64,000 nucleotides of DNA from positions 17,070-81,069 of the forward strand of contig JACPID010000003.1 of the NCBI GenBank assembly GCA_016188265.1. The letters are read 5' to 3'. This stretch comes from Candidatus Woesearchaeota archaeon. GTDB taxonomy: Archaea > Nanobdellota > Nanobdellia > Woesearchaeales > ARS49. Numbering within the stretch: the stretch's first letter is position 1; the number at the start of each line of letters is the position of its first letter. Positions 7,253 through 63,321 of this stretch are shown here, piece by piece. The notes under the pieces are model-generated. The model was not told where the DNA came from, searched no databases, and saw only the letters and a program-made list of their open reading frames with translations. The position numbers were made by a program, and so were the translations under genes.

Positions 7253-7342
7253 TTAGTTGAGGACATAAGTAAAGCATATATTATTCAACCTCAACTAAGT
7301 TGAAAAAGACAAACTATTTTATGTGTTACTTTTGTCTTTTTC
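7253..7342. ncRNA. Paired-hairpin element between divergent TA and asnS genes
   Basis: Stem 1 ttagttgagg/cctcaactaa (7253-7262/7289-7298), stem 2 gaaaaagacaaa/tttgtctttttc (7302-7313/7331-7342), 3-nt spacer; loop 1 acataa (7263-7268) complements loop 2 ttatgt (7319-7324). Confidence 0.5.
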
Positions 7343-7387
7343 TATTTTTACTAAACACTTAAAAACACTGCACATTGAAGTACACCT

Positions 7388-15143: not shown

Positions 15144-15371
15144 ATGGCACAAAAAGTAACAAAAGTAGGTGTAAAAAAAGAAAAAGGATATCTCTACTTT
15201 GTAGATAAAAAAGGAAATGTAGCTCGTGCAAAAATGGCACGCGGTAAAAAAAGAGGCGGCAAAACAGAAGTTGTTGCAAAAGCAGGTGTAAAAAAAGAAA
15301 AAGGATATCTCTACTTTGTAGATAAACAAGGAGATGTTTCAAAAGCTAAAATGGCACGCGGCGGAAGATAA
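15144..15371 (+). CDS. Small basic protein made of two tandem units (candidate nucleic-acid-binding protein)
   Basis: Units VGVKKEKGYLYFVDKKGNVARAKMARGKKRGGK and AGVKKEKGYLYFVDKQGDVSKAKMARGGR; strong ribosome-binding site ggaggag upstream. Confidence 0.8.
   Translation: MAQKVTKVGVKKEKGYLYFVDKKGNVARAKMARGKKRGGKTEVVAKAGVKKEKGYLYFVDKQGDVSKAKMARGGR
15167..15209 (+). repeat. 43-bp exact direct repeat, copy 1
   Basis: aggtgtaaaaaaagaaaaaggatatctctactttgtagataaa, identical at 15284-15326. Confidence 0.95.
15284..15326 (+). repeat. 43-bp exact direct repeat, copy 2
   Basis: Identical to 15167-15209. Confidence 0.95.
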
Positions 15372-16554: not shown

Positions 16555-16932
16555 ATGCCCCACCAATGCGTAAGGTGCAATGCCATTTATGAAGATGGAA
16601 GCAAAGAAATTCTAAAAGGCTGTTCCTGCGGAGCTCGACTATTTTTTTTCATTAAAAAAGAAAGGCTAGAACAGCTTAAAAAAGATTTAGATGTTAATCT
16701 TTCAAATGAAGATAAAAAACAAATAGAAGAAGATGTGTATGACCTTATAGGAACAAAAGATCCTGATGCGCCTGTAATTTTAGACTTTGAAACAATACGC
16801 ATACTTAAACCAGGAAAATATGAAGTAGATCTTGTTCAGTTATTTAAAAAAGAACCTCTTGTTTTTAAATTAGAAGAAGGAAAATACATCATTGATTTGC
16901 CTGAAACATTTGAAAGACTTAAAAACAAATAG
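16555..16932 (+). CDS. Zn-ribbon protein (DUF2072-like)
   Basis: N-terminal CVRC...CSCG zinc ribbon (MPHQCVRCNAIYEDGSKEILKGCSCGARLFFF). Confidence 0.75.
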   Translation: MPHQCVRCNAIYEDGSKEILKGCSCGARLFFFIKKERLEQLKKDLDVNLSNEDKKQIEEDVYDLIGTKDPDAPVILDFETIRILKPGKYEVDLVQLFKKEPLVFKLEEGKYIIDLPETFERLKNK

Positions 16933-16942
16933 TTTTAACAAA

Positions 16943-17030
16943 TAGAAAACGAAATAAATAATAGGACAATAGTTTCGTTTTCTAAATAGTACGCGCCATA
17001 AGAGTGTCCTACAAATTATGGCGCGTACTA
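16943..17030 (+). repeat. Paired-hairpin repeat, copy 1
   Basis: Stem 1 tagaaaacgaaa/tttcgttttcta (12 bp, 18-nt loop); 2-nt spacer; stem 2 tagtacgcgccata/tatggcgcgtacta (14 bp, 16-nt loop). Loop 1 taggaca (16962-16968) complements loop 2 tgtccta (17005-17011). Confidence 0.9.
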
Positions 17031-17033
17031 AAA

Positions 17034-17939
17034 TCATTCATCATCAATAATAATTCTGGCAATATTATTCAATAAAGTGATTACTTGTTTAAAATGCTCA
17101 TGTGTTTCATTAGGCAATTGATCAACTTCCTGCATAATTATTGTTCTTTGTTTAGCAAAATTATCTGCAAAATGTTTGTCTTTAGTATAAAATGATTTCA
17201 TAAGTGCTTCATAATGTTCTGAAATATTTTTTAGAAATAATTGAACTGAATTTTGTTTTTCTTTTATAAGAGGATAAATATTTTTACAACAATCTGCAAT
17301 ATTTTCCAAATTAACAGCCAAATACCATAAAGATAATATTCTTGCAGGAAGGATTTTAAATTGTTCTGCCAATGTATCATCTTTTAAAGATCCTTTAAGC
17401 ATACGAAATACTAAAAAGTATAATCTATTAACATCTTGATCACGAAATGACAAGCTTTCCTGAGCTGTATCTTTTGATATATCTTGAAACATTGAACGTA
17501 AAATCATATCAATGCGCCTGATAGTTTTTTCAATAGAAACATCATCTATATTAAGGAGATCTCTTGCTGTAAATGAATTAGAAGATTGTTCAATAAGCTC
17601 TAGTGCAACAAAATCCCTTAAAAGTTCTCTTAATTCCTGTTGATTTTTTTTAACCTGCTCCCCAACTATATTTATTGTGTGATAATTATTTATGTACGCA
17701 GAAGTTATTTCTCTTTGAAGTGTTTCAAATGCTTTTGATTTTTCAAATGAGAGAGTAATTTCTCTTGCAACTGGTTTTGATCTTTTAATATGCGGGGTAA
17801 TAATTATTTCTGTGGATGATTTCTCATATAAGTAAACAGCATCTCCTTTTTTGAGGTTATTTTTATCCAGCCACTCTTTTGGCAAAGATAAAGTATGACT
17901 TGTTTGTCCTGCTTTTACTAATTTTCTAACATAAACCAT
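17034..17939 (-). CDS. AbrB-domain + PhoU-domain regulator
   Basis: N-terminal SpoVT/AbrB-like VRKLVKAGQTSHTLSLPKEWLDKNNLKKGDAVYLYEK, then a PhoU-like helical region; paralogous to 60474-61352. Confidence 0.8.
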   Translation of the reverse strand: MVYVRKLVKAGQTSHTLSLPKEWLDKNNLKKGDAVYLYEKSSTEIIITPHIKRSKPVAREITLSFEKSKAFETLQREITSAYINNYHTINIVGEQVKKNQQELRELLRDFVALELIEQSSNSFTARDLLNIDDVSIEKTIRRIDMILRSMFQDISKDTAQESLSFRDQDVNRLYFLVFRMLKGSLKDDTLAEQFKILPARILSLWYLAVNLENIADCCKNIYPLIKEKQNSVQLFLKNISEHYEALMKSFYTKDKHFADNFAKQRTIIMQEVDQLPNETHEHFKQVITLLNNIARIIIDDE

Positions 17940-20489: not shown

Positions 20490-22762
20490 GAAAGACATTA
20501 TTAGAAACAGCATATATTTTTGCAATTAGTGCAGTATTAATATTATTTTTATTATATACTAATTGGCATATTTATCTTGTATTTTTTGTTTTTTTATTTG
20601 CAGGACTTCCTATTTTAAGCTTTTTTCAATACAAGAATTTTTCATGGATTGAAAGAATTTTAATGGCTTTTTTTCTTGCTGATAGCTTGTTTTTTATTTT
20701 TCACTTACTAGTATTATGGCGTATTCCGTTATTAAAGCAATTTACACTGTTTTGGTTTTTATTTCCTATGCTGCTTTATTTTTTACGCTGGAACCATGTA
20801 AAATCAATAATTAATAATTCTGACTTAAAATTTTCTGAAAAAAATGCAATACTAATATTATTGTTAACAAGTGCGTTTATACTTTCACCTGCTGCAAGAC
20901 CTCATGTTTTATCTGATACAGACTATCTTCCAGAAGCATGGCAAGGATTAAATATCAATCACCAAATTGAAAGATCAGGATCAATAGCCTTATGGACTAA
21001 AGAACTGCTGGTTGGTTATCCTAGATTTATTTATGATGGATTTATTTCTTATGAAAAATTCGGATTTTTATCAATGATTTTTGGAACAAAAAATTATTTT
21101 GGAAGTATTAATTCAGTCCTTATAATTTCATTTTTATTTATGCTTTTAGGAGTGTATAGATACTGCCGTTATCTAGGTGGAAAAGAGTACTGGTCACTTA
21201 TCCCACCTTGGTTTATTCTTGGAAGCTATTTGTTTATCCAATTATTAGGATTGGGTTATTTAAGGGCAATTATGAGCATTTCAATATATCCATTAATGCT
21301 TATTTGCTCTATTAATATTAAAGAAAATTGGAGATTATTACTGATGATTTCAATTTTAAGCTTTTTTCACCATCCAATGTATGGATTGATTACAATTATA
21401 TTCTGCTGTTTACTGAACTGTTTAAAGTATAAATCAATTGATGAAACTATAAAGCCAATTATGTATTTAAGCAGTTTGTTTTTCATAATTACATTATTCT
21501 GGTTAATTCCTGCCCTAACAACAAAAGAATATTCATTCATGGAAATATCAAAAGTTTCTTCTGCATCTGAAAAATTAATAGATTATTTTAACTTTTTATT
21601 TAACTTAATTGTAAATGAAGATGAATATTTTTGGATCTTTTTTATAACCGGCTTAATTGCAACAATAATATACAATCCATCATACTTGTATGTTTTATTA
21701 ACCATTATTTTATATGGACTGATTTATGTTATTCCAATAATAGGAAAGGTACTAAACTCAATAGATTTAGGCAGATTACGCTGGCTTTGGTTCATGTTAT
21801 TTAGCATATTTATAATATCACTCCAAAATATTAAAAATAAAAAATTAGCAAAATTATTATTTGCAATTATTGTTATTTTTTTAGTTCTAAAATTAATAAC
21901 ACCACATCAACAAATAAAAAAATTTTATTTTGATGAAAGAAGCGCTGATGAAATATACAATTTTAGCATTCTAAGCAAATTAAAAACTCTGCCTGAAGGA
22001 AGAATAGTAACCTATGGAGCTTTTGCAGCTGTTTTTGATAACTTTTTGCAAATTATTTCACAAAAAGATATTATTCATTATGGAATGTATCACGGCCAAC
22101 ATATGAATTTATTTGAAAAAACAAGATCAAAAGATGGAAATTATACTCTGCCTGATTCTACTCAACAAACATTAAATTATTTACGCGCATCATTCACCCC
22201 TTTCATAGTAGTAAGTGAGTGCAGTAAAGAAAGACCGGGAGCAAAAACAACTTTAAGACTTTATAAAGAAGCAAATAATGAATTAGAAGAAACCTACAGT
22301 GAAGACTGCATCAGGGTTTTTAAAATAAAAAACATATCATTTATTGAAAAGATCACTCTTGCAAGTGTTCCTGAAAATGAAAGTTTGTATATGTCATGGA
22401 ATAATTCTTGGAAAGCATACAACGCAGAAGGAGCTGAAGCAAACATGATAATACAAAAAGAAGAAGAATTAACAAAAATACTTGATCCAGAACCATTACA
22501 ATATCAAAGACAAAATAATGAACACATAATAATATATGAACCAACTGAAAACTCATGGATAGTTATTAAAGAACAGTATCATCCTTACTGGAAAGCGCAT
22601 CAATCAGAAAAAGAATTAACAGTATACAAATCTAATATTGGAACAATGCTTGTGAAAGCAGAAACAAATGAAAAAATCGATTTAAAATTTCAAAACCCAG
22701 GATATGTTAAATGGCTAGCATTATTAAGCATGTTAACTTTATTTTTACTAATGCTACTTTAA
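20486..22762 (+). CDS. Large polytopic membrane protein (GT-C-glycosyltransferase-like)
   Basis: Over ten hydrophobic segments plus C-terminal soluble domain; overlaps the GGDEF stop by 4 nt (ATGA). Confidence 0.7.
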   Translation: MRKTLLETAYIFAISAVLILFLLYTNWHIYLVFFVFLFAGLPILSFFQYKNFSWIERILMAFFLADSLFFIFHLLVLWRIPLLKQFTLFWFLFPMLLYFLRWNHVKSIINNSDLKFSEKNAILILLLTSAFILSPAARPHVLSDTDYLPEAWQGLNINHQIERSGSIALWTKELLVGYPRFIYDGFISYEKFGFLSMIFGTKNYFGSINSVLIISFLFMLLGVYRYCRYLGGKEYWSLIPPWFILGSYLFIQLLGLGYLRAIMSISIYPLMLICSINIKENWRLLLMISILSFFHHPMYGLITIIFCCLLNCLKYKSIDETIKPIMYLSSLFFIITLFWLIPALTTKEYSFMEISKVSSASEKLIDYFNFLFNLIVNEDEYFWIFFITGLIATIIYNPSYLYVLLTIILYGLIYVIPIIGKVLNSIDLGRLRWLWFMLFSIFIISLQNIKNKKLAKLLFAIIVIFLVLKLITPHQQIKKFYFDERSADEIYNFSILSKLKTLPEGRIVTYGAFAAVFDNFLQIISQKDIIHYGMYHGQHMNLFEKTRSKDGNYTLPDSTQQTLNYLRASFTPFIVVSECSKERPGAKTTLRLYKEANNELEETYSEDCIRVFKIKNISFIEKITLASVPENESLYMSWNNSWKAYNAEGAEANMIIQKEEELTKILDPEPLQYQRQNNEHIIIYEPTENSWIVIKEQYHPYWKAHQSEKELTVYKSNIGTMLVKAETNEKIDLKFQNPGYVKWLALLSMLTLFLLMLL

Positions 22763-32066: not shown

Positions 32067-32069
32067 TAA

Positions 32070-32158
32070 TAGAAAACGAAATAAATAATAGGGCAATAGT
32101 TTCGTTTTCTAAATAGTACGCGCCATAAAGAGTGTCCTACAAATTATGGCGCGTACTA
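32070..32158 (+). repeat. Paired-hairpin repeat, copy 2
   Basis: Differs from 16943-17030 by one substitution (loop 1 taggaca>tagggca, 32089-32095) and one inserted A in loop 2; stems perfect; loop pairing kept through a G-U wobble. Confidence 0.9.
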
Positions 32159-32199
32159 TAAGCAAAAATATAAAAATACTTGAAGATTATTAACACATA

Positions 32200-46460: not shown

Positions 46461-46543
46461 GTTATACTATAATTTCTTTTAGTTTATATTTGTTACTGAT
46501 ACTATAGCAAAATTTATTAATAAAGTAGTATATTTAGTATAGG

Positions 46544-46631
46544 CGCCGAACTTAATAATTGTATAAATAATAGTTAAGTTCGGCGAATATAACAAACGCA
46601 AAAATTATGAAAATATAGTGCGTTTGCTATA
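46544..46631 (+). ncRNA. Paired-hairpin element upstream of the surface operon (AATT-loop type)
   Basis: Stem 1 cgccgaacttaa/ttaagttcggcg (46544-46555/46574-46585), loop taattgtataaataatag; 2-nt spacer; stem 2 tataacaaacgca/tgcgtttgctata (46588-46600/46619-46631, one mismatch), loop aaaattatgaaaatatag. Ends 20 nt before ATG 46652. Confidence 0.7.
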
Positions 46632-63156: not shown

Positions 63157-63201
63157 TAGTACGCACCATAAAAAGTGTCCTACAAATTATGGCGCGCACT
63201 A
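63157..63201 (+). repeat. Paired-hairpin repeat, copy 3 (second hairpin only)
   Basis: tagtacgcaccata/tatggcgcgcacta with loop aaaagtgtcctacaaat; two A-C mismatches on the + strand. Confidence 0.8.
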
Positions 63202-63233
63202 AAATAACATCTGTGAGTTTTCTCTTAGAGTAA

Positions 63234-63321
63234 TGCCAGACATAAATAATTATACAAAATAGTTATGTCTGGCAGACTTAGTAACTGACAAGAATTGTAC
63301 AAATAATATGTCAGTTACTAA
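63234..63321 (+). ncRNA. Paired-hairpin element upstream of pilin-like genes (AATT-loop type)
   Basis: Stem A tgccagacataa/ttatgtctggca, loop ataattatacaaaatag; 3-nt spacer; stem B ttagtaactgaca/tgtcagttactaa, loop agaattgtacaaataata. Confidence 0.7.

Follow-up and report, generated by a model that had tools for sequence, protein, structure and literature searches.

A double-hairpin repeat of Woesearchaeota is very probably a MITE of an IS630-related clade that duplicates 3 bp of its target

This work describes an 88-nt double-hairpin element on the + strand at positions 16943 to 17030 of the 64,000-nt stretch of Candidatus Woesearchaeota DNA analyzed here (the window). The element is very probably (probability of roughly 0.92) a non-autonomous DNA transposon (MITE) moved in trans by an IS630/Tc1-mariner-type DDE transposase. 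It is short, non-coding, and multicopy, with a 26-nt TIR and a fixed 3-bp target-site duplication (TSD), and relatives of its host harbor related autonomous insertion sequences (ISs) whose TIRs and TSDs match those of the element. Empty sites of the paralogous kind were also found. A departure concerns the target: the main subfamily and its IS clade duplicate 3 bp, often with no TA among them, and insertion at TA with duplication of TA holds in sister subfamilies and their ISs. For this reason, we assign the element to the MITEs of an IS630-related clade rather than to the canonical TA-inserting IS630 MITEs, a 3-bp, non-TA duplication being non-canonical for IS630 as judged from the open-access literature and general knowledge rather than from ISfinder.

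The window element fills the gap between two convergent genes. It starts 10 nt past the stop codon of a + strand gene (16555 to 16932), and the convergent gene (17034 to 17939) begins 3 nt beyond its end. Both of these gaps include an AAA duplication (16940 to 16942 and 17031 to 17033, identified by flank comparison), such that the locus reads AAA-element-AAA. The left TIR (TAGAAAACGAAATAAATAATAGGACA; 16943 to 16968, + strand) comprises a tip at positions 1 to 3, box 1 at 8 to 11, and box 2 at 20 to 25; the right TIR (TAGTACGCGCCATAATTTGTAGGACA; 17005 to 17030) reads on the - strand. Hairpin 1 (16943 to 16984, + strand) has a stem of 12 to 13 bp, namely 12 Watson-Crick pairs plus one G-U, whose outer arm is the tip and box 1 of the left TIR and whose loop contains box 2. 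Hairpin 2 (16987 to 17030, + strand) has a 15-bp stem and a 14-nt loop containing the inverted box 2. The first loop carries TAGGACA and the second its exact complement, TGTCCTA. A sequence-only reading of the same DNA had placed the element at precisely these coordinates and had correctly given the complementary heptamers and the position relative to the two genes; its 12-bp first stem stands as well, whereas the second, given as 14 bp with a 16-nt loop, is one pair longer, and the AAA duplication was missed.

The predicted fold of the window element has an MFE of -37.2 kcal/mol, compared to a mean of -12.1 for shuffled sequences (z = -9.4; none of 200 shuffles was equally good). A blind two-hairpin finder returned six pairs in the window, whereas three Markov-shuffled versions gave 0, 1, and 0. 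Five of the six are elements (two of the window element's subfamily and three of diverged subfamilies), and the remaining pair, at 21807 to 21881, looks like chance. These comparisons, together with the copies described below, exclude a chance origin of the double hairpin. Such a very stable fold could also be expected of a structured RNA (a 3'-end stabilizer, terminator, or sRNA) that works via its two hairpins and loop-loop kissing and has spread as a repeat. We consider this reading improbable; an Rfam search gave no family at the gathering threshold, and further evidence on it is given below.

The genome that contains the window (G000; 924 kb in 25 contigs, 98% complete) holds 11 full copies of 88 to 89 nt with 94 to 100% identity, in addition to partial and half copies. 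All 11 full copies are flanked by an exact 3-bp duplication (AAA, TAA, TTA, or ATA). In the window, a second full copy lies at 32070 to 32158 (+ strand; TSD TAA at 32067 to 32069 and 32159 to 32161), and the genome search retrieved a lone right hairpin, a decayed copy, at 63157 to 63201 (+ strand). The diverged two-hairpin elements are found at 7254 to 7344 (- strand; another subfamily, TAGAAAAAGACA.../TAGTTGAGGACA..., with TSD TTT), 46540 to 46629 (+ strand; TAGGCGCCG.../...GCTA, with a probable TA-type duplication), and 63232 to 63320 (+ strand; TAATGCCAGACA.../TAGTAACTGACA..., with no clear TSD). Relatives were sought across the order with a covariance model trained on 21 elements, a search that had been proposed from the sequence; of 359 genomes, 99 contain full-length relatives, with a constant length of ∼89 nt. 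Neither disrupted, uncompensated stems across the family nor confinement to the contig was seen: stem changes are compensated, and members occur throughout the order. Matches in a named collection were Candidatus Woesearchaeota throughout, and viral contigs searched with two exact element patterns gave no match. A gene neighbor common to the copies was looked for, and none was found. As a side observation, a small basic protein with a duplicated GVKKEKGYLYFVDKKG motif is encoded at 15144 to 15371 of the window, and a homologue adjoins an element in G004 (L026, downstream).

TSDs were surveyed in 106 extracted elements from 47 genomes, with the chance rate taken from flanks paired across genomes. 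An exact 3-bp duplication was present in 84 of these elements, compared to 14% expected by cross-pairing. The duplication reaches 4 bp in only three elements, and most elements that lack a 3-bp duplication duplicate TA. TAA is the commonest target (28/84), and because it is preferred, copies often abut stop codons. Many copies sit at gene 3' ends, as would suit a structured RNA, but their proximity to stop codons is accounted for by this target preference. At three loci (L015:2238-2326 and L016:2971-3058 in contigs C8 and C25 of G000, and L011:8061-8149), reading frames of a putative DGR-like reverse transcriptase and UvrD-like helicase (named by eye) continue into the element, where they terminate with NNRTIVSFSK followed by TAG, such that the elements furnish C termini and stop codons.

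Two nested insertions yield paralogous empty sites. In G057 (L028/L039), the unoccupied sequence GAAATAATGAG is matched by GAAAT[element]AATAATAAG, giving a 3-bp AAT duplication; for a nested element in G000, CAACTTAGTTGAGG is matched by CAATCTA[element]TAGTTGAGG, giving a TA duplication. The host of the G057 insertion is itself a member of another, sequence-unrelated two-hairpin family (AGAGAAGTTTGA.../AGAGAACTTTGC...; L028:1293-1380, L039), with the present element inserted in its loop. A composite of two nested elements (L171 to L173; G000 contigs C11 and C22) moved as a ∼180-nt unit with GAA TSDs. Transposition of this composite shows that element ends suffice and that neither the 89-nt length nor the adjacency of the hairpins is essential; composite and nested elements also break up the compact unit on which a structured RNA would depend. 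In L172, part of the composite was lost between ATTTATGTC repeats. At another locus (L195; G098:C47, from 1501), at least four hairpins stand in a row (TAGTAAGTGAC..., GCGGTGGAC..., TAGTCACGGA..., and AAAGAACAC...), apparently as stacked elements.

Genome searches with the TIR pattern first yielded elements of 230 to 330 nt with the same TIRs and 3-bp duplications and no end hairpins and next a 1024-bp IS in the same-family genome G015. This IS has TIRs TAGTCAGCGACATAAGTAATTAGACA and TAGTCAGCGACATAAATTGTAGGACA, the TSD TTT, and a transposase in two frames; TAGTCAGCGACATAAATTGTAGGACA, its right TIR, agrees at 22/26 positions with the window element's right TIR. Joining the two frames across the frameshift gives a transposase with a score of 215 bits against NCBIfam transpos_IS630 (cutoff, 100); Pfam DDE_3 is matched at 3e-20. 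In general, IS630 elements in relatives are about 1.0 to 1.1 kb long, encode a DDE_3 transposase that is mostly split in two frames, and carry TIRs matching the MITE subfamilies; end hairpins were not found at these ∼1-kb elements. The duplication is 3 bp in ten ISs (those of G015, G092, G282, G286, G041, G124, G051, G050, G249, and G143) and TA in four (G205, G348, G139, and G003), with TTT, TTA, AAA, ACT, TAT, and ATC duplicated in the 3-bp clade. In the transposase tree, one clade takes most 3-bp ISs, with G249 and G143 apart. Both boxes recur at the IS ends, with own versus cross values of 0.97 versus 0.51 at positions 8 to 11 and 0.80 versus 0.34 at positions 20 to 25; because each IS TIR pair was chosen for being the best inverted-repeat match flanking its gene, TIR identity as a whole is inflated, whereas this block pattern is unaffected.

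For 91 of the 106 MITEs, one end is identical at ≥19/26 positions to some IS TIR, against a background of ∼1% of 844 TAG-starting 26-mers. IS630 transposase homologues were detected in 38/359 genomes, and the small element is present in 19 of these 38 genomes versus 80 of the other 321 (Fisher p = 0.002; overlap counted by hand). No autonomous element with these exact TIRs was found in the 98%-complete genome of the window, where 28/28 strong TIR matches are known copies. The sole IS630 found there (contig C19) is frameshifted, with a TA-type left end and no recognizable right end, and groups in the transposase tree with a TA-type relative. Other candidate partners were set aside: transposases of PF01609, PF01797, and PF00665 did not track with copy-rich genomes, and a DGR-like reverse transcriptase beside one copy (L015) was a single occurrence, taken as a bystander.

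Several related elements are larger or differently organized. The 230- to 330-nt elements L174, L185, L197, L201, L205, L207, and L209 (G142, G136, and G154), several of which have 3-bp TSDs, carry a single large fold-back core (CAATCCG..CGGATTG, GCCTCGCC..GGCGAGGC). TA-type relatives (L175, L179, L180, L183, L184, L187, and L191 to L193; G138, G142, G143, and G137) have variable cargo between two hairpins, consisting of nested palindromic modules (GTCAAAAA...TTTTTGAGCA and GCTCGAAAA...TTTTCGACA) that differ in most copies. A further subfamily with TAGATAACTGCG ends comprises L037:1154-1243, L067:1621-1711, and an IS in L233 (G205), and probably derives from the TA-type IS630 of G205. The loops of the L037 element share a perfect 9-mer (TATAGCCTA/TAGGCTATA).

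REP/REPIN and BIME palindromes, which like the present family are small paired palindromes dispersed between genes, are associated with Y1 transposases and produce no TSD. The hairpins described here start with TAG, recalling GTAG-tagged REPs, and as pairs they resemble REPINs; a REP/REPIN or IS200/IS605-type palindrome that a Y1 (HUH) transposase mobilizes in the form of single-stranded hairpin DNA was therefore weighed. GTAG-tagged repeats are among those described in PMC3733652. The chance that this accounts for the element is close to nil, since both the TSDs and the presence of a cognate DDE transposase contradict it: a 3-bp duplication is unexpected from Y1 transposition, and the family has an IS630 partner. 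In addition, Y1_Tnp was not found in G000, only about half of copy-rich genomes have one, and the longer elements that share these TIRs either have no end hairpins or encode an IS630 transposase. Among the four functions floated in the sequence-only reading, a MITE/REP-like repeat is borne out by the TSDs, TIRs, and cognate IS630 elements, and its remark that no known archaeal feature explains the repeat gives way to a MITE of an IS630-type element.

To compare the two ends, the left end was aligned to the reverse complement of the right end, read from the tips, for 57 nonredundant elements. In-register sharing exceeds the cross-element expectation at positions 8 to 11 (z = 7.3) and 20 to 25 (z = 8.8), with a weaker excess at 13 to 17 (z = 3.2) and no excess at 4 to 7 or 26 to 30. 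The TAG tip is invariant, and A12, A15, and T17 are almost invariant. A bipartite TIR occupies the first 26 nt at each end; it consists of the TAG tip and the element-specific boxes 1 and 2 and predicts sharing at both sites. The transposase would read tip, box 1, A/T-rich spacer, and box 2, presumably through tandem helix-turn-helix domains as in ISY100. Insertion with a 3-bp stagger would then duplicate 3 bp of target, with a sister set of subfamilies duplicating TA instead. The complementary loops are box 2, inverted, once at each end.

The "kissing" heptamer coincides with box 2. Covariation does provide points in favor of a structured RNA: by pair counting, the stems are 94 to 96% paired and the loop-loop helix is 83% paired, with two-sided changes at 15/33 pairs, and loop complementarity is 5.66 nt versus 4.78 nt for permuted loops (p of about 1e-4). 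However, covariation of the loop-loop helix is equally explained by box 2, which lies in TIR register and is common to the hairpin-less 1-kb IS ends, and box 1, which the ends also share, falls within the stems, a place where kissing between loops gives no reason to expect sharing. Kissing complementarity is also missing from many copies. Sequence comparison thus suggests that the kissing loops are mostly the second recognition site of the transposase rather than an RNA device. In the kissing complex proposed earlier, the complementarity is real, and the RNA interpretation is superfluous; RNA kissing is not needed to explain the loops, although it may take place.

The stems present a separate problem. 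Inner and outer arms of each hairpin match at 91 to 100% for each of positions 4 to 11 (cross-element, 30 to 80%), and pairing falls to 26 to 40% at position 13, the stem being exactly 12 bp. Positions 4 to 10 vary freely between elements, and 4 to 7 also between the two ends, yet they are 93 to 100% paired. The palindromes are maintained, and positions 4 to 7 are not end-recognition sequence; the TIR model by itself does not predict perfect stems there. An asymmetry of G-U (G-T) over A-C mismatches, which a structured RNA would favor, is not significant (37 versus 24; p = 0.12), and RNA-level selection on the stems is at best faintly indicated. Similarity between hairpins 1 and 2 is slightly avoided at positions 5 to 7 (z = -2.5), a point that fits both a structured RNA and a MITE whose hairpins are functionally required. 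In the latter case, the substrate of the transposase or host would be a cruciform or a folded single strand, and pairing between the loops would help to bring the ends together in synapsis. The exact, freely diverging stems and the constant length over 99 genomes agree with such a requirement, but autonomous IS ends and the 230- to 330-nt elements share the TIRs and TSDs without end hairpins, and stem mutations confined to single young copies are uncompensated. Moreover, template switching can homogenize palindrome arms, leaving apparent compensation (PMC8794818; palindrome-arm template switching also features in PMC8604942), and so could make and keep perfect stems without function. A functional requirement is therefore doubtful. 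For the MITE favored here, the inner arms are specific to the MITE form, with palindromy probably kept by replication template switching and/or selection on transposable copies; persistence of the hairpins would reflect either palindrome correction or structural need. A bolder scenario, in which an archaeal IS630 clade moved from TA to 3-bp targets and drives order-wide MITEs whose ends must fold into 12-bp hairpins, with box 2 loop pairing helping synapsis, is likewise unlikely.

Known MITEs of IS630/Tc1-mariner elements (e.g., Submariner of Pandoravirus; PMC4495683) are similarly short, non-coding, and multicopy, with target duplications and TIRs matching an IS630/mariner-type element. The window family differs in its woesearchaeal host, the 3-bp non-TA duplication of its main subfamily, and its two end hairpins with compensated 12-bp stems. 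Coxiella QMITEs and other prokaryotic MITEs (reviewed in PMC10969869) are likewise AT-rich and intergenic, with TIRs, direct repeats, and transcripts with predicted stable stem-loops; whereas the two TIRs of a typical MITE transcript pair with one another, in the present family the partner of each TIR is an inner copy of itself, and two hairpins result. The bacterial IS630 element ISY100 inserts almost only at TA, which it duplicates, and two helix-turn-helix motifs of its transposase span the 24-bp TIR (PMC2170065). It shares with the woesearchaeal elements a DDE_3 transposase with an N-terminal HTH region and TIRs of ∼24 to 26 bp, bound over their full length in ISY100, and its two HTH motifs fit the two boxes. 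In contrast, the woesearchaeal clade duplicates 3 bp, against the TA rule, and in most of its members two frames encode the transposase.

Taken as a MITE, what appeared to be an orphan RNA structure becomes an explained mobile element, and MITEs are extended to an order-wide family in Woesearchaeota. TIR recognition boxes in register can produce covariation that looks like that of RNA kissing loops, and discovery of noncoding RNAs by covariance may be misled by it. Relative to textbook knowledge, the novelty lies in the 3-bp non-TA duplication (for IS630) and in two 12-bp hairpins with compensated stems (for MITEs). The family suggests that some IS630-type transposases duplicate 3 bp, departing from the TA that is regarded as a constant feature of the Tc1/mariner superfamily, and the TA- and 3-bp-type elements with sequenced transposases offer a direct route to what sets the stagger.
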